Source: Buttiauxella sp. B2
Lineage (GTDB): Bacteria > Pseudomonadota > Gammaproteobacteria > Enterobacterales > Enterobacteriaceae
Assembly (NCBI RefSeq): GCF_006376615.1
Contig: NZ_VEXQ01000004.1
Coordinates: 62,001 to 126,000 of the forward strand
DNA: 64,000 nucleotides
Direction of reading: 5' to 3'
This document shows, piece by piece, positions 16,859 to 64,000 of the stretch; positions within the stretch are counted from its first letter, which is position 1; each line of letters starts with the position of its first letter. Under the pieces are notes generated by a model. It saw only the letters and a list, made by a program, of their open reading frames with translations, was not told the origin of the DNA and did no database searches. A program made the position numbers and the translations under genes.

Positions 16859-16953
16859 TGGCGGAAGATCACAGGAGTTGAACCTGCCCGGCACCGCTGG
16901 CGGCACCAACTGGATTTGAAGTCCAGCCGCCTCACCGGAGACGACGATCTTCC
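16859..16953 (-). tRNA. selC: tRNA-Sec (selenocysteine, anticodon UCA)
   Basis: A 95-nt gene on the minus strand from GGAAGATCGTCGTCTCCGG to the encoded CCA end. The long 8-bp acceptor stem, extended variable arm (GCCGCCAGCGGTGCCGG region) and TCA anticodon (complement at 16917-16919) identify selenocysteine tRNA. Serine charged on it is converted to selenocysteine by SelA for insertion at UGA by SelB. The selenoprotein gene fdoG lies only about 7 kb away in this window. Confidence 0.97.
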
Positions 16954-24010: not shown

Positions 24011-27000
24011 TTATACCTTTTCCACGTTGACCAGGAACGCCTTAAATTCAGGCGTTTGCGTGTTGGCATCACCGACAAACGGCGTCAAAGTGTTGGCGAT
24101 AAAGCCTTTCTTCGCAACACCCTCGTAACCCCAGTGAATTGGGATCCCGATGGTATCCACTTTCTGGCCGTTCACATCAAGCTGGCGAATACGTTTGGTC
24201 ACCACTGCTTTGGCTTTGATAAAGCCGCGGTTGGAGGAGACTTTCACCGTATCGCCGTGAGCAATACCGAGTGAGTTCGCGAGCTTTTCGCCAATCTCGA
24301 TAAACTGCTCTGGCTGCGCGATGGCGTTTAACACCGCGTGTTTGGTCCAGTAGTGGAAATGCTCGGTCAGACGATAAGTGGTGCCGACATATGGGAATAA
24401 GTCCGGCTTGCCCATCGCTTCCAGATCACCTTTAAACACGCGTGCAGCCGGGTTGGAAACCACATTCGGGTGCAACGGGTTGGTACCCAGCGGCGTTTCA
24501 AACGGCTCGTAGTGTTCCGGGAACGGCCCTTCTGCCATTTTGTCGATAGCGAACAGACGCCCTAAACCTTCTGGCTGCATGATGAACGGCCCAACGTCGG
24601 TGCCCGGTGCCGCAGTGCTATAGTCTGCAATATCCGCACCGCTCCACTTCGCGCCATCCCAGGAAATCAGGCGGCGTTTTTCATCCCACGGTTTACCCTG
24701 AGGGTCAGCGGAAGCACGGTTATACAGAATGCGACGGTTGAGCGGCCACGCCCAGGCCCAGCCCAGCGTGTTGCCAAGACCAGACGGATCGGCGTTATCA
24801 CGACGGGCCATTTGGTTGCCTTCTGGCGTCCAGCTACCGGCGAAAATCCAGCAGCCACTTGAGGTTGTGCCATCATCGCGCAGTTGGGCGAACGAACTAA
24901 GCTGCTGACCTTTTTTCACCAGCACCGCGCCGGTTGCCTGATCAACCACGTCTTGCAACGCTTTACCGTTGCTCTCCATGGCCACTTCTTCTGGCGCTGG
25001 GTTATCGGGTGTCAGATAATTCCAGGACATGCTCAGCACTTGCTCAGGTGCTGCACCACCCTCGCTCAGGTACATATGACGCAGACGGGTAAAGATACCG
25101 GAGAGAATTTCGCCGTCGTTCAGCGCTTCCCCTGGAGCGTCCGCACCTTTCCAGTGCCACTGCAACCAGCGGCCGGAGTTAACGATAGAACCGTTTTCTT
25201 CGGCGAAACAGGTCGATGGTAAGCGGAACACTTCGGTCTGGATTTTCGACGGGTCAACATCGTTAAACTCGCCGTGGTTTTGCCAGAAGTTCGCGGTTTC
25301 TGTGTTCAGCGGGTCGATGGTCACGAGGAATTTCAGCTTCGACAGTGACGCAATGACTTTGTTTTTGTTCGGGAACGATGCAACAGGGTTAAAGCCCTGG
25401 CACAGGTAGCCGTTCACTTTGCCCTGGTTCATCATCTCGAAATATTGCAGGACGTCGTAGCCCTTGTCCCACTTCGGCAACCAGTCATAACCCCAGCTGT
25501 TTTCTGCTGTGGATTTGTCGCCGTAGAAGGCTTTCATCATCGAAACGAAGAATTTCGGGTAGTTACCCCAGTAGTTTACCTGGCCTTCCAGCAGCGGTTT
25601 TGGCGTGTTGGCGGCAAGATAAGTCTGGAGATCTGGCTGTTTTTCGCTTGGCAGCGTCAAGTAGCCAGGCAGGCTTTGTGACAACAAGCCGAGGTCGGTC
25701 AGCCCCTGAATGTTAGAGTGACCGCGCAGGGCGTTTACGCCACCGCCTGCCATTCCCATGTTGCCGAGCAGCAATTGAATCATCGCCATGGTGCGAATGT
25801 TTTGCGAACCCACGGAGTGCTGCGTCCAGCCCAGTGCATACAAGAACGACGCAGTTTTATTTTTTGCGCTGGTTTCTGCGATGTATTCACAAACTTTCAG
25901 GAAATCGTCTTTTGGGGTGCCGCAAATATTGGAAACTACGTCTGGTGTGTAGCGGGAAACGTGCTCTTTTAGCAGATTCCACACGCAACGTGGATGGCTC
26001 AGGGTCAGGTCGCGTTTGGCGAAGCCCTTCTCATCCAGCTCATAGTTCCAGGTAGTTTTGTCATATTTACGGTTCGCCGCGTCGTAGCCTGAGAACAGAC
26101 CGTCGTCGAAGCTGTAATCCCCACGCACAATCAGATTGGCGTTGGTGTAAGCCTCAACGTATTCGCGGTTGAATTTATTGTTGTTTATCAGGTACAGCAG
26201 TACGCCTGACAAGAAGGCAATGTCAGAACCGGAGCGAATTGGAGTATAGAAATCCGCCACCGAAGCGGTACGCGTAAAGCGCGGATCGATAACAATCAGC
26301 TTCGCGCCATTGTGGATTTTGGCTTCCATCGCCCAGCGGAATCCGACTGGATGCGCTTCAGCTGCGTTCCCACCCATGACAATAACAAGATCGGCGTTCT
26401 TAATATCAACCCAGTGGTTGGTCATCGCACCGCGGCCAAATGTTGGAGCAAGACTTGCTACCGTTGGTCCGTGTCAGACACGCGCCTGGTTATCCACGGC
26501 AAGCATGCCGAGGGCGCGGGAAAATTTCTGGGTTAAATAGCCGGTTTCATTACTGGATGCAGAGGCGCACAACATGCCGGTAGAGAGCCAGCGGTTTACC
26601 GTGGTTCCCTGTTCGTTCTGGGCAATAAAGTTAGCGTCGCGGTCTGCTTTCATCAGTTTGGCGATGCGGTCAAAGGCATCTTCCCAACTGATTTGCTGCC
26701 ATTTATCGGATCCGGCCGCACGGTATGACGGGAATTTCAGGCGGCTTTCGCTGTGAATGAAATCCACAAGACCAGCGCCTTTAGGGCAAAGTGCACCGCG
26801 GTTTACCGGATGGTCCGGGTCGCCCTCGATATGGAAGATGGATGCTTTGGCATTTTTCGCGCCGTCACCGAGGCTGTACATTAATAGCCCACAACCGACG
26901 GAACAGTATGTGCAGGTGTTACGGGTTTCACGGGTTCGCAGTAGTTTGTACTGCCGAGTTTCCGCAAGCGCAACGCCTGGGGCAAAACCCAGAGCCGCTG

Positions 27001-54967: not shown

Positions 54968-55127
54968 AGCTGTTCCTTTATTTATACGTAGGGTTATTTT
55001 GTAATTATGTGAACGTACTTCCAGTACCTTCGTTATAACAACTCTACTTTTTAAAAGAAACCTGTTGCGGTAAATAGGTACGGATAGCCACAAAGTGCAT
55101 ACCTGTTTCGCATGAATACCAGAAACG

Positions 55128-55154
55128 AAAAAACCCGCCGAAGCGGGTTTTTTT
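55128..55154. terminator. terminator of cspA
   Basis: AAACCCGC/GCGGGTTT stem with A and T flanks, 27 bases after the cspA stop on the minus strand. The symmetric flanks make it usable in both directions. Confidence 0.9.
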
Positions 55155-55180
55155 AATTCTTAGCTTTGCTAACGTTAACC

Positions 55181-55393
55181 TTACAGGTTAGTTACGTTAC
55201 CAGCAGCTGGGCCTTTAGCACCACTTTCGATGGTGAAAGACACTTTCTGGCCTTCGTCCAGAGACTTGTAGCCATCAATCTGGATAGCAGAGAAGTGTAC
55301 GAACACGTCTTTTGAGCCATCGTCTGGAGTGATGAAGCCGAAGCCTTTGTCAGAGTTGAACCATTTTACGAGACCAGTCATTTTGTTAGACAT
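55181..55393 (-). CDS. cspA: CspA, major cold-shock RNA chaperone
   Basis: A 70-residue cold-shock domain protein, only a few residues different from E. coli CspA (start [20 protein letters not shown], end [12 protein letters not shown]). The RNA-binding motifs are KGFGFI (RNP1) and VFVHF (RNP2). It melts RNA structure at low temperature. The 159-base leader with its cold box distinguishes it from CspC/CspE-type paralogues and identifies it as the CspA gene proper. Confidence 0.93.
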
Positions 55394-55552
55394 AGATATT
55401 ACCTTTTAAATTAAATTTGCCTTCCGGCGCAATTGGAATGTTTTACAGATTTTTTAAAGCGATAAAGGAAGGTAGATCACGTCGAAGGGTATCTATGATA
55501 ACTCTTTGAGGACTGCGTTACTAAACTGCTTAAAGGTCTGTGCTTCAAACCG
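55394..55552 (-). promoter_or_regulatory. cspA 5' leader: cold box and RNA thermoswitch
   Basis: The leader begins CGGTTTGAAGCACAGACC (plus-strand 55535-55552), matching the E. coli cold box CGGTTTGACGTACAGACC. It continues with conserved segments (AAGAGTTATCATAGATACCC, CTTTATCGCTTTAAAA, AATCTGTAAAACA) up to AAGGTAATA before the ATG. The implied length is 159 nt, the same as E. coli. The E. coli leader refolds on cold shock to allow translation. Confidence 0.9.
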
Positions 55553-55668
55553 ATGGATGTATTAACACATATTCAGCATGTGAATGGCAAGGTTTATTTT
55601 AGCCATCCGCAGGTCTAGAGCTCAAGCCAGCCGCGGGATTCCCCGCCTTTCGACGGGGAAAATCACAC

Positions 55669-56379: not shown

Positions 56380-56498
56380 CTTTTCTACTCCTCACCATTC
56401 AATTCAAATACGCAAATGCGCACCCAATAATGGTGCTAAGGATAGTCCAACCTGACTTTGCAAGATACCCTTTCGCAACAATCTCTTTAAGGCAAATT

Positions 56499-56548
56499 TG
56501 CGCTGCAATGGTGCATTTTCAACCGCTGTTCTGCACCTTGCTGGAACA
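56499..56548 (+). promoter_or_regulatory. two NtrC-type enhancer sites
   Basis: TGCGCTGCAATGGTGCA (56499-56515) and TGCACCTTGCTGGAACA (56532-56548) fit the 17-bp NtrC pattern TGCACC-N4-TGGTGCA. Their centres are 33 bp apart (three helical turns) and about 146 and 113 bp upstream of the predicted start at 56653. That is the geometry of the glnA enhancer. Confidence 0.7.
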
Positions 56549-56625
56549 TTGCCCATCATCTGTGCATAACCCTCTTGTGAGGTTAATTGGTTGTAATAAA
56601 TAGATAAAGTATGAAATTTTCAGAC

Positions 56626-56642
56626 CTGGCATTCATTTTGCT
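56626..56642 (+). promoter_or_regulatory. sigma-54 (RpoN) promoter of the guanidine operon
   Basis: CTGGCATTCATTTTGCT has the invariant GG (56628-56629) and GC (56640-56641) separated by exactly 10 bases, with the TTGC of the -12 element complete. Predicted transcription start is near 56653. Together with the upstream NtrC-like sites this indicates nitrogen control. Confidence 0.78.
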
Positions 56643-56699
56643 GATATCTGGATGCAGGGGTGATGCGGGCAACCGGTGTCGCCAGACAATTTGGTAATG

Positions 56700-56790
56700 G
56701 ATCACTAGGGTTCCGGTCGAAAGACGCTGGTCCGAGAGTGATCGACCGCCCTCTGGCGGTTACACGGCGGGATAAAAGCCCGGGAGGATA
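56700..56790 (+). promoter_or_regulatory. guanidine-I (ykkC) riboswitch
   Basis: Hallmark conserved blocks are in order: CTAGGGTTCCG (56705 on), CTGGTCCGAGAG (56727 on), ACACGGCGGGATAAAAGCCC (56762 on) and CGGGAGGAT (56781 on), with an intervening GACCGCC/GGCGGTT hairpin. This is the ykkC consensus of class I guanidine riboswitches. It precedes a guanidine carboxylase operon, the most common context. Binding of guanidinium normally turns expression on. Confidence 0.95.
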
Positions 56791-56826
56791 AGCGACCATT
56801 GAGTGCCGCCCCCTCCTGCATCTTTT
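56781..56826 (+). terminator. candidate expression-platform terminator of the riboswitch
   Basis: CGGGAGG (56781-56787), the 3' strand of the aptamer, can pair with CCTCCTG (56812-56818; one G-U). A T run follows at 56822-56826. Ligand-bound aptamer would hold CGGGAGG and prevent this terminator, giving an ON switch. The stem is short, so confidence is moderate. Confidence 0.5.
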
Positions 56827-56850
56827 TCCGCAACTGTCAGAGGAATCGCC

Positions 56851-57906
56851 ATGCTTAAAGCTTGCCACCGTGGAATCTTGTTTGCCGCACTCGCGCTATT
56901 TAGCGTTAGCGCCTTTGCAGCAAAACCCACCTTTAAACTCTGCTGGTCTATTTATGCAGGCTGGATGCCCTGGGATTACGCCCAGCAAAGCGGCATCGTC
57001 AAAAAATGGGCAGACAAATACGGGATCGACATTCAGTTTGTGCAGGTGAACGATTATATCGAATCGGTGAACCAATATACCGCCGGAGGGTTTGACGGTT
57101 GCACCATGACGAACATGGACGCGCTGACCATCCCCGCAGCCGGTGGCGTTGACAGTACCGCATTGATTATTGGCGATTACTCCAACGGTAACGACGGCAT
57201 TCTCTCGAAATCCGCAAAATCCATTGCCGAGCTTAAAGGGCAGCCAGTTAACCTGGTTGAGCTTTCGGTTTCTCATTATTTACTCGCCCGCGCCCTGGAA
57301 AAATCAGGCCTGAGTGAACGCGATGTGAAAGTGGTCAACACGGCTGATGCGGATCTTGTCGCGGCGTTTACCACGCCAGAAGTGAAGTCCATCGTCACCT
57401 GGAACCCACTGTTGGCCGAAGCGCAAAAACAGCCGAACGCAAAATTACTTTTCTCGTCCGCACAAATCCCTGGGGAAATCCTTGACCTGTTGGTGGTAAA
57501 TACCGAAACCCTCAAAGCGCACCCAGAATTAGGGAAGGCGCTGACCGGCGCATGGTTTGAAACGCTGAAGGTTATGCAGGGAGAGTCCACGACTGCCAAA
57601 GCCGCTCGTACCCAAATGGGCCAGGCTGCGGGTACAGATTTAGCTGGATTCGACGCCCAACTCGCCGCGACCCACCTTTTCAGCGATCCAAAACTGGCGC
57701 TGGATTTCACCGACAGCCCACAGCTGAAAGCCACCATGCAGATGGTTGCAGAGTTCTCCTTTAAGCACGGTTTATTGGGTGAAGCGGCTCAATCAGCCGA
57801 CGTGGTAGGCGTGGTGACACCTGCGGGTAACTGGGGTGACACCAACAACACCAAACTGCGCTTTAGCGACGAATTTATTCTCCTCGCCGTAAAGCAACAG
57901 TTGTAA
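56851..57906 (+). CDS. guanidine-operon periplasmic binding protein (taurine/nitrate type)
   Basis: A 351-residue SsuA/TauA/NrtA-like solute-binding protein. A signal peptide ends after SAFA (about residue 23). The mature part starts AKPTFKLCWSIYAGWMPWDY and continues with GGFDGCTMTNMDALTIPAAG and IVTWNPLLAEAQKQPNAKLL. The start at 56851 follows AGAGGAATC. It is the first gene after the guanidine-I riboswitch and precedes a matching permease and ATPase. By association it imports guanidine or a guanidine-yielding compound; specificity is an inference. Confidence 0.88.
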   Translation: MLKACHRGILFAALALFSVSAFAAKPTFKLCWSIYAGWMPWDYAQQSGIVKKWADKYGIDIQFVQVNDYIESVNQYTAGGFDGCTMTNMDALTIPAAGGVDSTALIIGDYSNGNDGILSKSAKSIAELKGQPVNLVELSVSHYLLARALEKSGLSERDVKVVNTADADLVAAFTTPEVKSIVTWNPLLAEAQKQPNAKLLFSSAQIPGEILDLLVVNTETLKAHPELGKALTGAWFETLKVMQGESTTAKAARTQMGQAAGTDLAGFDAQLAATHLFSDPKLALDFTDSPQLKATMQMVAEFSFKHGLLGEAAQSADVVGVVTPAGNWGDTNNTKLRFSDEFILLAVKQQL

Positions 57907-57921
57907 AACCGGAGGTGCCCA

Positions 57922-58734
57922 ATGCGCAAAATCATTAACTATCAACCCCATCCAATGTCTCGTGTGCTGATGGGCGCCTTACCGTTAGTTGTGGTGGTCT
58001 TCTTTTATCTGGTGGCGTCTGATGCACGTCTTGCAGCAAACAGTTACGACAAACTGCTTCCGGGGTTCGACGCGATGTGGTCGGCCATCGACCGCATGGC
58101 ATTCACGCCAAGTCCGCGTACCGGGGAATATCTGTTCTGGGTCGACAGTGCGGCGAGCTTGCTTCGCTTGCTGGTTGGTGTGGGGTTCAGTGCGCTGCTG
58201 GCTCTGATTTTTGGCCTGTTTTGTGGTGCTCTGCCGGTGGTTCGGTCGGTGCTTTCACCGTTGATTACGTTGATCGCTCTGATCCCACCGCTGGCGATTC
58301 TGCCCATCCTGTTTATCACCTTTGGATTGGGCGAACTCTCGAAAGTGGTGCTGATTATTATCGGTATTACGCCGTTTATCGTGCGCGATTTACAGCTGCA
58401 GGTTCAGACCATTCCCCATGAACAAATGGTGAAAGCCCAGACGCTTGGCGGCCATAGCGCGCAAATCCTTTGGCGCGTGGTTCTGCCGCAATTGTTACCC
58501 CGCCTGATTGATGCCGTGCGCCTGTCTCTGTGCTCTGCATGGCTATTCCTGATTGCTGCCGAAGCCATTGCCGCCACCGAAGGGCTCGGCTACCGCATCT
58601 TTCTGATGCGCCGCTATATGGCGATGGACGTGATTTTGCCGTACGTGGCATGGATTACGTTACTGGCTTTCACCCTCGACCTGCTGCTGCGCGTGATCAA
58701 CCGTCGCTGCTTCCCGTGGTACTACGCAAAATAA
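57922..58734 (+). CDS. guanidine-operon ABC transporter permease
   Basis: A 270-residue inner-membrane permease of the SsuC/TauC family with about six hydrophobic helices (VLMGALPLVVVVFFYLVASD at the N terminus). The EAA loop is PHEQMVKAQTLGGHSAQILW near residue 170. It ends in a Tyr-rich CFPWYYAK. It lies between the binding protein and the ATPase with short gaps, so it is part of one transport cassette. Confidence 0.88.
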   Translation: MRKIINYQPHPMSRVLMGALPLVVVVFFYLVASDARLAANSYDKLLPGFDAMWSAIDRMAFTPSPRTGEYLFWVDSAASLLRLLVGVGFSALLALIFGLFCGALPVVRSVLSPLITLIALIPPLAILPILFITFGLGELSKVVLIIIGITPFIVRDLQLQVQTIPHEQMVKAQTLGGHSAQILWRVVLPQLLPRLIDAVRLSLCSAWLFLIAAEAIAATEGLGYRIFLMRRYMAMDVILPYVAWITLLAFTLDLLLRVINRRCFPWYYAK

Positions 58735-58743
58735 GGAGGCGCT

Positions 58744-59619
58744 ATGGCGTTGCTCGAACTTAAAAATATCGAAAAGCACTATGGTGACCAGGTGGTACTG
58801 GAAAGGCTGAACGTGAGCGTCGAAGAAGGTGAGTTTGTTTCGATTGTAGGTGCTTCGGGGTGCGGGAAAACTACTTTTCTGAAAATGCTGCTCGGTACTG
58901 AAACGGCCACCAAAGGTGAGTTTTTACTGGATGGCGAGCCTATCTCACAAGAGCCGGATGCCCAGCGTGGCGTGGTTTTTCAGCGCTATTCGGTATTTCC
59001 GCATCTGACGGTGATTGGCAATGTGATGCTGGCTGAGGAATTTAGCACCGCGCGGTGGCTGGGGCGCGTGTGGGGCCAGAAGCGGGCTGCGATTCGTGAA
59101 CGCGCCCGCGCAATGCTTGATCAAGTCGGTTTATTGCCTGCGCAAAACAAATATCCACATCAGCTTTCCGGTGGCATGCAGCAGCGTCTGGCATTGGCTC
59201 AGGCTCTGATGAAACAGCCGCGTATTTTGCTGCTTGATGAGCCGTTTGGCGCGCTAGACCCGGGTATCCGCAACGAAATGCACTTGCTGATAAGCGATTT
59301 GTGGGCACGCCATCGCCTGACCATTTTCATGATTACACACGATCTGAAAGAAGGTTTTTCACTCGGCTCAAGGTTGTGGGTTTTCGACAAAGTACGTCAT
59401 GACCCGCAAGCGCCGGATCGCTGGGGTGCGAGTATTACTTACGACATTCCGCTTGACCGTAAACCCGCGGGGAAAACAGTGCTCACTCCGGCTCTTTCTG
59501 CGGATGACATTCACTCTGTAAATGACCCCCTCCCAGCCTCCTCCTTGCCAGGGGGAAGAGCTAAAGGCACCCCTCTGCTCCCTCACTTGCCAGGGGGAGA
59601 AGCCGGGTGGGGTCAGTGA
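58744..59619 (+). CDS. guanidine-operon ABC transporter ATP-binding protein
   Basis: A 291-residue SsuB/TauB-type ATPase. Walker A is GASGCGKTT near residue 40, the signature LSGGMQQR near 140 and Walker B ILLLDEPFGALD near 160. The last 30-odd residues (from about 260, containing PASSLPGGRAKGTPLLPHLP) are encoded by a C-rich inverted repeat at 59524-59614, and the stop codon lies just beyond it. Family members usually end about 30 residues earlier, so the repeat appears to have replaced the original terminus. Otherwise the protein looks intact. Confidence 0.87.
   Translation: MALLELKNIEKHYGDQVVLERLNVSVEEGEFVSIVGASGCGKTTFLKMLLGTETATKGEFLLDGEPISQEPDAQRGVVFQRYSVFPHLTVIGNVMLAEEFSTARWLGRVWGQKRAAIRERARAMLDQVGLLPAQNKYPHQLSGGMQQRLALAQALMKQPRILLLDEPFGALDPGIRNEMHLLISDLWARHRLTIFMITHDLKEGFSLGSRLWVFDKVRHDPQAPDRWGASITYDIPLDRKPAGKTVLTPALSADDIHSVNDPLPASSLPGGRAKGTPLLPHLPGGEAGWGQ
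59524..59614. repeat. C-rich inverted repeat overlapping an ATPase gene end
   Basis: Outer arms GACCCC and GGGGTC enclose two direct copies of CTTGCCAGGGGGA. The element resembles the CTCTCCC hairpin family elsewhere in the window but is larger and is translated in the ATPase frame. Confidence 0.7.
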
Positions 59620-59680
59620 AGTCTGTATAAAAGACAGCCAGAGTGAGGGCATAACATCCAATACCCACCAAGGAGCCAAC

Positions 59681-60394
59681 ATGACTTATCAAACCGAACT
59701 TCCCGCTGGCAGCCACTGGTCGCTCGTCATGCGCAAGGGCACCGCTTTAACGCTCACCGACATCCAGGGTGGCGTCAATGCCGCTGCCCTGTTCTACAAC
59801 CCAGAAAATCTGCTGGAACGTTATAACGCTCCGGACACCCTGAAATGCCAGCACACTTTTCGGCTCACTGCCGGGCATTGTCTGTATTCAGATATGGGCC
59901 GTATTTTCTGCGGCATTGAACAAGACAGCTTTGGCTGGCACGAAACGGTGTGTGGCAGCAGCAATGCTTTGCAGATAACCGAACAATTTGGCGCACTGGA
60001 CTACCAGCAAGCCCGCAATGAACGGCACCAGAATGGCTATGACAGCTTCCTGATCGAACTGGCAAAATACGGCCTTGGGAAGCGCGATATGGCAGCGAAC
60101 ATCAACTTCTTTTCCAAAGTGACCGCCAGTGATGAAGGCCATTTACAGCTCGAACAACAAGGCTGTGCGGGTGCATCTGTCACGCTGCGTTTTGCCATGG
60201 ACACCTTAGTGGTGCTCCATACGTGCCCGCACCCACTTAACCCTGCCGGGGAATATCCGCGCCAGCCGCTCGGTATCACGCTTGATGCTCAGCGCCAGCC
60301 GCTGCCAGAAATCTGCCTGCAACGTGAAGAAAACCGCCGCGGGCTGCATAACAACGAACTTTATATTCTGACTGAAGGAGCCTGCGGATGCTGA
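59681..60394 (+). CDS. DUF1989 protein, carboxyguanidine deiminase-family subunit
   Basis: A 237-residue DUF1989 (urea-carboxylase-associated family) protein. It contains [20 protein letters not shown] near residue 30, [20 protein letters not shown] near 75 and [17 protein letters not shown] near 185, with conserved His/Cys that fit a metal site. In bacteria with guanidine carboxylase two such proteins form the CgdAB deiminase that converts carboxyguanidine to allophanate and ammonia. The start at 59681 follows AAGGAGCCAAC. It overlaps its partner gene by 7 bases. I do not assign A or B. Confidence 0.82.
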
Positions 60395-61023
60395 CTGAAA
60401 GCCCACGCCACACAGAAAATGCGCAGCTGCGAGCAACGGTAAATGCCGGAGATTATTGGCTGTATCGCCTTGAAGAAGGCCAGACTTTGCGGATAACCGA
60501 TCTGGAAGGTAATCAGGCGGCGGATACGTTGTTTTACAACGCCGACGACACCGCAGAACGCTACAGCGTGACAGACACCTTGCGCGGTCAATGTAACGTA
60601 TTCCTCAGCAGTGGCAGTGTGCTGCGCTCTAACGAAGACCGCCCGATGCTGGAGATTGTTGCCGATACCTGCGGTCGCCACGACACCCTCGGCGGTGCCT
60701 GTGCCACCGAAAGCAACACCGTGCGTTACTCACTGGAAAAACGTCATATGCACGCCTGCCGTGACAGTTGGCTGCTTGCCGTCGCGCAGCACCCGGAATA
60801 TGGCCTGACGCGTCGCGATATCACGCACAACATCAATTTCTTTATGAATGTTCCAGTGACCAAAGAAGGTGGGCTCCAGTTTGCCGATGGTATTTCAGCA
60901 CCAGGGAAATACGTCGAACTGGTCGCGAAAATGAACGTTCTGGTGATGATTTCCAACTGCCCGCAGCTTAATAACCCTTGCAACGGTTACAACCCAACGC
61001 CGATCGAAATCGCCGTCTGGTAA
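60388..61023 (+). CDS. DUF1989 protein, second carboxyguanidine deiminase-family subunit
   Basis: A 211-residue paralogue of the preceding protein. Landmarks are [20 protein letters not shown] near residue 35, [20 protein letters not shown] near 95, [20 protein letters not shown] near 145 and [20 protein letters not shown] at the C terminus. The overlapping ATGCTGA junction with the first DUF1989 gene implies coupled, probably equimolar, synthesis. A heteromeric CgdAB-type enzyme is the best inference. Confidence 0.82.
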
Positions 61024-61102
61024 TTCTTTAAGCGCAGCGGGACGGCCCGCAATCAAGCGCCCGAATGCCATGCAGGACGACCTGCCAGCCAGAGAACCGA
61101 TT

Positions 61103-64000
61103 ATGTTTAAACGAGTCTTGATTGCCAACCGTGGCGCTATTGCAGTGCGCATCATCCGTACATTGCAGCAAATGGGCATCACCGCGATTGCGGTTTATGC
61201 CGAAGCCGACAAACATTCACAGCATGTCCGTCTGGCCGATTGTGCGTTTTCCCTTGGCGATGGGAACGTGCGTGAAACCTATTTGAATCAGGAAAAATTA
61301 TTCGCGATTATCAAGGAGAGTGACGCCGAAGCGGTTCATCCGGGTTACGGTTTCTTGAGTGAAAATGCCAGTTTTGTCGAACGCTGCGACGCAGAAAATG
61401 TTGTATTCCTTGGCCCCACCGTTGAGCAGATGGCGGCATTCGGCCTTAAACATCGCGCTCGCGAACTGGCAGAGCTTAACCAGGTGCCCTTGCTTTCAGG
61501 TAGCGGTCTGCTGACCTCACTGGATGTTGCGTTAAGCGAGGCAGAACGCATCGGTTATCCGGTAATGCTAAAAAGCACGGCTGGTGGCGGTGGCATTGGG
61601 ATGCAATGTTGCGATTGCGCCACCACATTGAAAGACGCCTTTACGCGCGTAAAACGCCTTGCAGGTAATAACTTCTCCGACGATGGCGTCTTTTTAGAGA
61701 AATTTATCGCTCGTGCCCGCCATATCGAAGTGCAGGTATTTGGTGATGGCGCGGGGAACGTTATCGCGCTGGGCGAACGAGATTGCTCGGCGCAACGCCG
61801 GAACCAGAAAGTTATCGAAGAAACCCCCGCACCGCGCCTGTCGGATGCCACTCGCAACGCCTTACACCGTACGGCTGTAGAGCTTTGCAAAGCGGTGAAT
61901 TATCGCAGCGCCGGAACGGTTGAATATGTTTATGACGATGTTAGCGAGCAGTTTTGGTTCCTGGAAGTGAACACAAGATTGCAGGTAGAGCACGGCGTTA
62001 CCGAAATGGTTTACGGCGTAGATATTGTGAGCTGGATGGTTGCGCTGGGTGCAAAAGCGCTGCCAGAACTGGAAACATTGCGCACCACGTCGCACGGTCA
62101 TGCCATTCAGGTGCGCGTCTATGCCGAAGATCCGGCGAAAAACTTCCAGCCAGTCGCCGGGCTGTTGAGCGAAGTGATATTCCCGCAGGCGGTGGACGGC
62201 GCAACACTGCGTATTGACCACTGGCTGGCAACAGGCTGCGAAGTCTCGCCGTTTTACGACCCGATGCTGGCAAAAGTGATTGTTCATGCTGATTGTCGCG
62301 AACAGGCGTTGGTTTCCCTTGCACAAGCTTTGCAGCAAACGTCGCTATATGGCATCGAAACCAACCTCAAGTGGCTGCAATATTTGCTAACTTTGCCTGA
62401 GGTACAAGAAGGCCGAGTTATCACGGCAACGCTTGGCAGCGTGAACTGGCAACCGACTACGCTTGATGTGCTGACGGGTGGCACGATGACCACCATTCAG
62501 GATGTTCCAGGTCGCAGCGGCTACTGGCACGTTGGTGTGCCGCCTTCCGGCCCATTCGATAGCCGAGCCTTTACTGTGGGCAACCAGCTTTTAGGCAACG
62601 ATGCGCAGGCCGCAGGGCTGGAAATTACCTTACGTGGCCCGACGCTACGCTTTAATCAACCGTGTGCTTTTGTGCTAACCGGTGCAGAAATTGCTGCGAA
62701 AATGGATGACGAAACAGTAGCCACGGGTGTGGTGATAAACGCGAATGCCGGTCAAACCCTGACGCTGGGCGATATTACCGGTGCGGGTTGCCGTAGTTAT
62801 TTGCTGCTGGCGGGAGGACTAAACTGCCCGCAATATCTCGGCAGTCGCAGCACCTTTACGCTGGGTAAATTTGGTGGCCACGCGGGGCGATCATTGCGTG
62901 CCGGAGATGTGCTGCATCTTGCTGCGCCAGAACATCGACCTACGGCTGCATTAACGGGGCAGGGTTACTCGCAACTTTATCCGCAACTCAGCAATAACTG
63001 GCAAATCCACGTGGTCTACGGGCCGCACGGCGCACCGGAGTTCTTCACCGAACAAGATATTCAGGCCTTTTTTGCCGCCCGCTGGCAGGTGCATTATAAC
63101 TCGAGCCGCACCGGTATTCGTTTGATTGGCCCAAAACCAATCTGGGCACGCAACGACGGCGGCGAAGCAGGTATGCATCCTTCCAATATTCACGACAACG
63201 CCTACGCTTTTGGCACCGTAGATTTTACCGGTGATATGCCGGTGATTCTGGGGCCGGATGGCCCATCACTTGGTGGTTTTGTTTGCCCGGCAACAGTGAT
63301 TAGCGACGATTTGTGGAAGCTAGGACAGCTTAAAGCGGGTGATACGATTGAGTTTGTGGCGGTGAGTCTGGAGTGTGAGAGCGACCCACGCCAAATAATC
63401 TCCCCAATCATGCACCACGACCCGGCCAACAACGGCATGCCGTCTGTGACCATTCGCGCGGCGGGCGATCGCTTTTTGCTGGTGGAGTACGGTGAACAAA
63501 TGCTGGATATTGCTCTGCGTTTCCGCGTCCATGCGCTAATGCAGCAACTGGAAGCCTATCCGCAGGCAGGGCGTCTTGAACTGACGCCCGGTATTCGTTC
63601 GCTACAAATTCATTTTGATAACCATCTTTGCCCTCGCCAGCAACTGCTGGAAACGATAGTCGCCGCAGATCAAGCACTTGGCGATTTACGGCACACAAAA
63701 GTCCCGTCGCGCACTGTCTGGCTCCCGCTGAGCTGGGACGATGCTGCTTGCCGTGAAGCGATCACGCGTTATACCCAATCAGTTCGTCCTGGTGCGCCGT
63801 GGTGCCCAAGTAATATCGAATTTATTCGCCGTATTAATGGCCTTGATTCGGTTGAACAGGTTAAGAAGATTGTTTTTGATGCCAGTTACTTAGTGATGGG
63901 GCTGGGGGATGTCTACCTTGGCGCGCCTGTTGCCACACCGCTTGATCCTCGTCATCGTTTAGTCACCACTAAATACAACCCCGCGCGCACCTGGACTGCG
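61103..64000 (+). CDS. biotin-dependent guanidine/urea carboxylase (partial, runs off window)
   Basis: The first 966 codons of an enzyme whose family is about 1200 residues; the frame is open to the window edge. The biotin carboxylase domain is residues 1 to about 445 (start MFKRVLIANRGAIAVRIIRT; ATP-grasp glycine loop KSTAGGGGIGMQ near 156; NTRLQVEHGVTE near 288). The KipA/KipI-type carboxyltransferase region begins near residue 460 (TMTTIQDVPGRSGYWHVGVP) and includes RNDGGEAGMHPSNIHDNAYA near 675. The biotinyl-Lys domain is beyond the window. The ykkC riboswitch and DUF1989 partners favour guanidine over urea. The substrate-defining Asn/Asp position was not mapped. Confidence 0.9.
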   Translation, partial: MFKRVLIANRGAIAVRIIRTLQQMGITAIAVYAEADKHSQHVRLADCAFSLGDGNVRETYLNQEKLFAIIKESDAEAVHPGYGFLSENASFVERCDAENVVFLGPTVEQMAAFGLKHRARELAELNQVPLLSGSGLLTSLDVALSEAERIGYPVMLKSTAGGGGIGMQCCDCATTLKDAFTRVKRLAGNNFSDDGVFLEKFIARARHIEVQVFGDGAGNVIALGERDCSAQRRNQKVIEETPAPRLSDATRNALHRTAVELCKAVNYRSAGTVEYVYDDVSEQFWFLEVNTRLQVEHGVTEMVYGVDIVSWMVALGAKALPELETLRTTSHGHAIQVRVYAEDPAKNFQPVAGLLSEVIFPQAVDGATLRIDHWLATGCEVSPFYDPMLAKVIVHADCREQALVSLAQALQQTSLYGIETNLKWLQYLLTLPEVQEGRVITATLGSVNWQPTTLDVLTGGTMTTIQDVPGRSGYWHVGVPPSGPFDSRAFTVGNQLLGNDAQAAGLEITLRGPTLRFNQPCAFVLTGAEIAAKMDDETVATGVVINANAGQTLTLGDITGAGCRSYLLLAGGLNCPQYLGSRSTFTLGKFGGHAGRSLRAGDVLHLAAPEHRPTAALTGQGYSQLYPQLSNNWQIHVVYGPHGAPEFFTEQDIQAFFAARWQVHYNSSRTGIRLIGPKPIWARNDGGEAGMHPSNIHDNAYAFGTVDFTGDMPVILGPDGPSLGGFVCPATVISDDLWKLGQLKAGDTIEFVAVSLECESDPRQIISPIMHHDPANNGMPSVTIRAAGDRFLLVEYGEQMLDIALRFRVHALMQQLEAYPQAGRLELTPGIRSLQIHFDNHLCPRQQLLETIVAADQALGDLRHTKVPSRTVWLPLSWDDAACREAITRYTQSVRPGAPWCPSNIEFIRRINGLDSVEQVKKIVFDASYLVMGLGDVYLGAPVATPLDPRHRLVTTKYNPARTWTA

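Follow-up and report, generated by a model that had tools for sequence, protein, structure and literature searches.

A nitrogen-assimilation operon, apparently for guanidine, in Buttiauxella sp. B2 is, on the evidence of its sequence, very probably under serial control, in which an NtrC-dependent sigma-54 promoter acts first and a guanidine-I and a putative guanidine-II riboswitch then check the transcript. We analysed a 64-kb stretch of DNA (the window), in which the control elements and their geometry can be read directly; their conservation, and their enrichment in assimilation over export loci, are likewise visible in the DNA. Signs of the same double control were seen upstream of most of the related operons compared.

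The guanidine operon and its upstream elements

The features of the operon are collected in Table 1. Its gene order (transporter, UAAP1, UAAP2, carboxylase) is that of a guanidine carboxylase operon, and the names UAAP1, UAAP2 and 'urea carboxylase' are now reported to belong to guanidine use, the guanidine carboxylase having Asp rather than Asn at its specificity residue (PMC12186494). Despite a score below gathering, the internal guanidine-II element retains both ACGR hairpins intact, with 5-bp stems. Paired ACGR hairpins were found within 130 nt upstream of the carboxylase in 58 of 67 loci with a placeable start, drawn from the best 80 of 570 relatives, as compared to none in either of two control stretches of those 67 loci. 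Placement of guanidine-II ahead of the carboxylase is an already known arrangement (PMC12186494, PMC12508155).

Table 1 Features of the guanidine operon and its upstream region (positions in the window)
Feature	Position	Strand	Remark
Upstream NtrC-like site TGCGCTGCAATGGTGCA	56499..56515	+	centre 56507, 146 bp before predicted +1
Downstream NtrC-like site TGCACCTTGCTGGAACA	56532..56548	+	centre 56540, 113 bp before predicted +1
Sigma-54 -24/-12 element TGGCATTCATTTTGCT	56627..56642	+	exact GG-N10-GC, read directly
Predicted transcription start	56653 (about +/-2)	+	spacing from -24/-12 element; P0-like 5' strand at +1 to +10 across loci
P0-like helix, 5' strand TGCAGG	56653..56658 (complementarity reaches 56651, GATGCAGG)	+	
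Guanidine-I riboswitch aptamer (RF00442)	56694..56788	+	covariance model 83.9 bits, gathering 63
Aptamer 3' end CGGGAGG, alternative partner of tail (with 56812-56818)	56781..56787	+	
P0-like helix, 3' strand CCTGCA(TC)	56815..56820 (complementarity reaches 56822)	+	adjoins T-run
T-run after P0-like 3' strand	56823..56827	+	read directly
Substrate-binding protein (TIGR03427 'putative urea ABC transporter'), likely guanidine uptake	56851..57906	+	ORF listed from GTG at 56803
ABC transporter permease	57922..58734	+	
ABC transporter ATPase	58744..59619	+	
UAAP1 (TIGR03425), carboxyguanidine deiminase subunit per published reassignment	59681..60394	+	start by eye within ORF 59522-60394
UAAP2 (TIGR03424), second carboxyguanidine deiminase subunit per published reassignment	60388..61023	+	
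Putative internal guanidine-II riboswitch, two ACGR hairpins	61034..61085	+	26 bits, under the gathering score of 32
Guanidine carboxylase gene (TIGR02712 'urea carboxylase')	61103..64000, past window end	+	ORF of 1193 aa from upstream ATG 61070

No allophanate hydrolase lies beside the operon, where the nearest following ORF of 200 aa or more encodes a PcaK-like transporter. Operons of Raoultella, Klebsiella, Erwinia and Vreelandella boliviensis are reported with similar gene content, guanidine-I at the head and guanidine-II before the carboxylase (PMC12186494, PMC12508155); unlike in those systems, the allophanate hydrolase of this genome sits away from the operon. Allophanate hydrolase is needed to complete the pathway, and the sole genome match above the cut-off for it is on contig C10, where the gene adjoins a second carboxylase-like ORF of the same kind, as judged by eye (L202 2-4227, minus strand). 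A predicted sigma-54 site of 17.2 bits lies about 41 nt before the start codon of this locus, too close for an aptamer to fit between the start site and the gene, and an NtrC-like site is at -80 (13.5); the guanidine operon and the C10 locus would share nitrogen input only. The window further contains a SECIS_3 element (26421-26479, minus), a selenocysteine tRNA gene (16863-16953, minus) and, near the operon, a cspA thermoregulator element (55125-55554, minus, 335.9 bits).

The earlier note on this DNA, made from the letters alone, had read a GG-N10-GC sigma-54 promoter with a start at about 56653. The element is exact, and the start is a prediction from its spacing. Counting both strands, the 4.97-Mb draft genome has 32 matches to the pattern TGGCAY-N5-TTGCW, as compared to 12 for a reversed-pattern control, and the single match in the window is 56627-56642. 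We trained matrices on 29 Salmonella sites (PMC3844500, Table 3). A strict 18-bp matrix gives the element 10.2 bits, where the lowest training site reaches 16.2, and three other window positions outscore it; the penalty is due to a T in TGGCATTCATTTTGCT at a position where the Salmonella sites almost always carry A or G, and to the bases that follow the -12 box. A softened 16-bp matrix with larger pseudocounts, adopted after the low strict-matrix score and reported here alongside it, gives 16.1 bits. Taken alone, the element would be suggestive only; it becomes convincing because of its position, the accompanying enhancer pair and its conservation. The genome encodes both rpoN (532.9 bits, cut-off 277.35) and ntrC (816.6 bits, cut-off 558.6).

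Two 17-bp NtrC-like sites with centres 33 bp apart, about 113 and 146 bp before the start, had also been noted earlier, and their coordinates match ours. The published NtrC box is TGCACCAnnnTGGTGCA (PMC8743547). In both 17-mers one half is perfect and the other imperfect, and they score 15.5 and 13.5 of a maximum of 17 with weights that we set by hand from a published consensus. This is the only pair in the window with both scores at least 13.5 and a spacing of 28-35 bp (63,984 positions scanned). The likeness to the glnA enhancer that had been claimed also holds: the glnA p2 enhancer of the same genome, located with the Salmonella glnA promoter sequence, likewise has two 17-bp NtrC sites about three helical turns apart upstream of a GG-N10-GC, and its layout is nearly identical, with site starts at -122/-90 from the T of the -24 box as against -128/-95 in the guanidine operon. 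The guanidine operon differs in that its NtrC-like sites are weaker (both glnA sites score 16.0) and its transcript bears a guanidine riboswitch.

The guanidine-I riboswitch was detected in 6 of the 12 genus genomes of the first search, own genome included, and all six keep both NtrC-like sites and the sigma-54 element. Across these six genomes, invariant columns number 14/17 in NtrC site 1, 4/16 between the sites, 13/17 in NtrC site 2, 32/78 in the spacer to the sigma-54 element, 15/16 in that element, 5/10 from -11 to +1, 36/41 in the leader and 91/95 in the aptamer. The 99 bp upstream of NtrC site 1 are likewise conserved (86/99 columns invariant in the six genomes) and may perhaps hold the promoter of a divergent gene.

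Sigma-54 sites across guanidine-I loci

To place the promoter in a wider context, we compared guanidine-I loci from riboswitch searches of the genomes of 60 relatives (the own genome among them), 369 genomes of the class and 398 of the phylum, in which 10, 29 and 43 genomes respectively had a riboswitch match; the loci examined are among the matches listed. A further 80 loci, the best 80 of 570 relatives, were obtained through the substrate-binding protein. A regular expression placed 140 distinct aptamer sites in these 143 loci, identical sequences being counted once and some loci holding two. Within 250 nt upstream, among the matches listed and by the softened 16-bp matrix, a sigma-54 site of at least 10 bits is present in 127 of 140 loci, as compared to 6 of 140 on the reverse strand; at least 12 bits is reached in 119 (reverse strand 5) and at least 14 bits in 89 (reverse strand 4). 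By way of background, 222 of 8,546 random 250-nt stretches of the same loci (2.6%) reach 10 bits. Score thresholds were set after first looks at the data.

Related loci are not independent, and we therefore grouped them by upstream similarity, which lessens but does not remove kinship: among the matches listed, the 139 loci with at least 180 nt upstream form 93 clusters, of which 84 have a sigma-54 site (reverse strand 4). Together with the six genus genomes, this bears out the conservation in relatives that the earlier note had named as a check. Both sources contribute, with 58 of 64 genome-search loci and 69 of 75 protein-search loci among the matches listed carrying a site. The sites lie mostly 70-95 nt ahead of the aptamer CTAGGG, and 38-39 nt ahead in three Roseibium loci and Thalassospira. 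The first search also gave four further guanidine-I loci from the same order; in each, a sigma-54-like site precedes the aptamer by 53-78 nt, and in one of these the -12 box has GT instead of GC.

The remaining 13 of 140 loci score below 10 bits, including one whose upstream DNA is masked (L069) and one whose second aptamer is preceded by just 76 nt (L135). No recognisable sigma-54 site was found upstream in L019, L032 (substrate-binding protein), L142 (hydrolase-like ORF) or L037 (permease), and L089 and L100 have at best a weak GG-N10-GC or GG-N10-GT by eye. Five loci in which the regular expression missed the aptamer, and which all hold a guanidine-I-like sequence by eye, stand outside the 140; their best upstream scores are 13.5 (L077), 9.7 (L098), 12.2 (L116), 18.2 (L117) and 12.2 (L118). 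Of five plasmid loci fetched from 235 records with the substrate-binding protein, those of Caballeronia, Rhizobium etli, Pantoea ananatis and Agrobacterium have a site of 16.1-19.1 bits, and no sigma-54 site was found upstream in that of S. fredii NGR234 (L173).

Several loci show unusual arrangements. Three Pseudomonas alcaligenes loci (L096, L106, L107) carry two guanidine-I aptamers about 1.4 kb apart (near 2390 and 3770), each with its own sigma-54 site. Reverse-strand matches of 14.4-15.1 bits lie upstream of the aptamer in L092, L093, L102 and L123 (three Pseudomonas), and these are perhaps divergent promoters using the same enhancer. In L028 (minus), L033 (minus) and L142 the guanidine-I aptamer precedes a putative ureohydrolase ORF, which we take to be a ureohydrolase and possibly a guanidine hydrolase; sigma-54 scores are 17.1, 12.8 and none, respectively. 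The available N-terminal fragments gave no NCBIfam match for the L028 and L142 ORFs and no Pfam match for that of L028.

Export loci were compared by searching guanidine-II in 274 genomes of the class and 119 of the order. Of 46 loci classified, 18 lie ahead of SMR exporters, 23 ahead of carboxylase genes and 5 elsewhere. At SMR-export loci a sigma-54 site of at least 10 bits occurs in 1 of 18 (10.7 bits) and an NtrC score of at least 13 in 1 of 17; the SMR exporter locus of the own genome (L150) has a sigma-54 score of 0.7. Carboxylase guanidine-II copies also have such a site in only 1 of 23 (10.4 bits), as expected if these copies sit inside the operon. In genome G186, where no guanidine-I match was reported, two guanidine-II loci have sigma-54 sites of 16.2 (L152) and 14.2 bits (L164), the latter ahead of a carboxylase. 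The contrast between export and assimilation, together with the G186 loci, suggests that the promoter tracks assimilation and not riboswitch class.

Pairing between the predicted start and the aptamer tail

Much of the window leader is able to pair with the tail around the aptamer, and across loci this pairing is anchored at the predicted start. Long leaders are found in 112 of the 127 loci with a sigma-54 site and short leaders in 15. An 8-bp near-perfect helix beginning from +1 to +10 is present in 46 of the 112 long-leader loci (28 of 70 clusters), as compared to a null of 6.4; control zones of equal width upstream of +1 give 8, 1, 4 and 6 loci, and the zone +10 to +20 gives 22. Watson-Crick runs of at least 9 between the -126-to-aptamer region and the tail occur in 27 of 106 loci (4.7 with the tails of other loci), and 23 of those 27 begin within -4 to +25 (null 1.7). 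The pairing is kept by differing sequences: GCATGAGAGAC in L004 and GTACCCTTGG in L070, for instance, both have a perfect complement in the tail of their own locus. In six short-leader loci (L099, L103, L108, L109, L137 and L141; three Roseibium, Thalassospira and two others of the phylum), the predicted start site carries GTGCAG or a close variant, which closes the aptamer by pairing with the tail 5 bases past it; L016 has another 7-bp helix, and the remaining 8 of 15 have no start-to-tail helix of comparable score. This pairing provides independent support for the sigma-54 start site.

Leader shuffling supported the pairing weakly (15 of 111 loci with z <= -3), a result probably due to the wide pairing capacity of GC-rich tails. 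Counts of gapless helices, controlled by upstream zones, were clearer. Measured by duplex energy against the tails of unrelated loci, the own tail falls in the top 5% for 51 of 110 loci, ranking first for 19, and for 26 of 64 cluster representatives. A locus-specific competing helix between the aptamer 3' end and the tail was not borne out (54 of 139 loci, against 43.4 with other tails and 26 with shuffled tails). By eye, tails in L050, L052, L055, L070 and others (e.g. CGTGTAAC) are complementary to the aptamer core TTACACG, a possible alternative pairing.

A P0 helix is stated not to be present in guanidine-I (PMC6031431), but P0-like pairing is what many of the guanidine-I leaders examined show. 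The PRPP and ppGpp riboswitches (ykkC subtype 2) likewise have a ykkC-type aptamer whose two tails, 5' and 3', pair with each other as P0 (PMC6031431). The pairing in the guanidine-I leaders usually lies farther from the aptamer. We tentatively propose that the sigma-54 start is a structural part of the riboswitch, a reading that we hold just short of probable: the NtrC-dependent transcript would open with one strand of a P0 helix, and this helix would both close the guanidine-I aptamer and compete with the OFF structure. By analogy with the PRPP riboswitch, we lean towards the P0-like helix being an antiterminator rather than a terminator stem.

It is possible, if somewhat doubtful, that the leader-tail helix is instead the terminator stem itself and not a helix of the ON state. 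Its 3' strand ends at or near a T-run in the window, in several Enterobacterales and in Psychromonas loci, and the minimum-energy fold of an RNA that begins at 56653 and stops shortly after the T-run contains the leader-tail helix with the aptamer stems inside (-67.3 kcal/mol, as compared to -61.2 with the Rfam aptamer pairs enforced and -61.5 with the stem 56781-56787/56812-56818 enforced). However, when 75 nt after the aptamer are included, the best fold of the window RNA lacks the helix and has the alternative stem with the aptamer 3' end instead; the helix is also compatible with the folded aptamer, so that ligand would not obviously disrupt it, and it is present without a T-run at many loci. 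In PRPP riboswitches, which have the same fold, P0 is reported as part of the ligand-bound aptamer (PMC6031431).

NtrC-like signatures and the probable joining of nitrogen and guanidine signals

We scanned for the activator in a motif-free manner, counting 64 x 21 = 1,344 trinucleotide dyads over the 230 nt that precede each of 125 sigma-54 sites (out of 127, the others having shorter upstream DNA). TGC-N11-GCA ranked first, in 48 of 125 loci as compared to 16.6 in shuffles, and the unselected inner positions of these seeds are C (0.67) and G (0.66), as in the NtrC box. The second dyad, CAC-N7-GTG (22 vs 6.5 in shuffles), fits within the NtrC box, and CTG-N14-CAG (23 vs 7.6) has no obvious fit to it. 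With the hand-set weights, an NtrC score of at least 13 is reached in 103 of 125 loci (20.9 in shuffles), and sites of at least 12 are enriched at about -150 to -60 relative to the -24 box. Among pairs with both sites at least 11, the spacings 31 bp (38 vs 2.9), 30 bp (20 vs 2.0) and 33 bp (14 vs 2.6) are enriched, as are 18-21 and 43 bp; the commonest spacing, 13 bp (43 vs 19.3), represents overlapping sites. Counting one locus per cluster, a score of at least 13 is found in 68 of 82 (12.0 expected), and pairs 28-35 bp apart with both sites at least 11.5 in 51 of 82 (3.4 expected), no such pair being found in the other 31.

It is very unlikely that the sigma-54 promoter is real and answers to an activator other than NtrC, one that senses guanidine or some related compound. 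In its favour, six more ORFs in the genome strongly match the central part of the ntrC model (265.8-396.1 bits, under the cut-off), and the enhancer halves in the window are imperfect; against this reading, the motif-free scan ranks the NtrC geometry first, its seeds carry the inner C and G without selection, site pairs are enriched at spacings near 30-33 bp, and a Burkholderia cluster has been published as ntrC-dependent (PMC5491218). Transcription mainly from a housekeeping sigma-70 promoter, with a minor or vestigial sigma-54 element, is most improbable: the operon start is a prediction and one sigma-70-like match lies at 56403-56431, but in a scan of 56380-56900 this match is at chance level (1 found, shuffle mean 0.7) with none from 56431 to the aptamer, no stretch upstream of the aptamer is as conserved as the sigma-54 element, and P0-like pairing starts at its +1 and is near null upstream.

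The Burkholderia cluster is I35_7283-7286 of B. cenocepacia H111, reported by RNA-seq as NtrC-dependent among 150 genes in nitrogen-limited cells; it has similar gene annotations and is treated there as urea genes (PMC5491218). Its urea carboxylase changes by log2 -6.0 in the ntrC mutant, and a related ABC transporter protein and a related 'aminomethyltransferase' are listed 'na', their fold change unprinted (PMC5491218). Similarly, predicted sigma-54 regulation is reported for 102 genes of COG3665, 59% of them named urea carboxylase, in a paper whose main text does not mention guanidine (PMC12316311). NtrC, RpoN and 'nitrogen limitation' are in turn absent from the main texts of PMC12186494 and PMC12508155. 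We found no paper joining guanidine carboxylase with NtrC, or a guanidine riboswitch with RpoN, in a search mostly of papers outside subscription journals, so that an earlier description is possible. The earlier note had called the combination undescribed for guanidine genes; this stands insofar as the accessible text of PMC5491218 and PMC12316311 makes no link to guanidine, and must be narrowed in that NtrC dependence and predicted sigma-54 control are in print under the name urea carboxylase.

For Buttiauxella sp. B2, we infer NtrC binding, the start site, ligand response and AND logic from these elements. Under nitrogen limitation, phosphorylated NtrC would bind the paired sites (56499-56548) and activate sigma-54 RNA polymerase at 56627-56642, with transcription beginning near 56653. 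The leader would fold as the guanidine-I riboswitch and transcription would proceed only with guanidine, and the putative internal guanidine-II riboswitch (61034-61085) would impose a second guanidine check ahead of the carboxylase gene. The outcome would be an AND gate of low nitrogen and guanidine present, such that guanidine-use genes are probably made only when nitrogen is short and guanidine is available. This agrees with the gating by nitrogen limitation proposed earlier, which applies to many nitrogen sources; the evidence does not extend to calling guanidine a nitrogen source of last resort.

In a review of tandem riboswitches, the absence of guanidine aptamers in tandem was read as a hint that cells need not combine guanidine with any further chemical signal (PMC9481103). 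These loci suggest that guanidine is combined with another signal, namely nitrogen status, at the promoter. Growth on guanidine versus ammonium, as in PMC12508155, may therefore alter two inputs together. Assimilation, nitrogen-gated, is thereby set apart from export, ungated in the loci examined, which bears on guanidine as a nutrient or a poison. If the sigma-54 start is indeed a structural part of the guanidine-I riboswitch, promoter and riboswitch would have evolved as one device and transcripts started elsewhere would switch poorly, providing a general nitrogen-AND-guanidine gate in the Gamma- and part of the Alphaproteobacteria.
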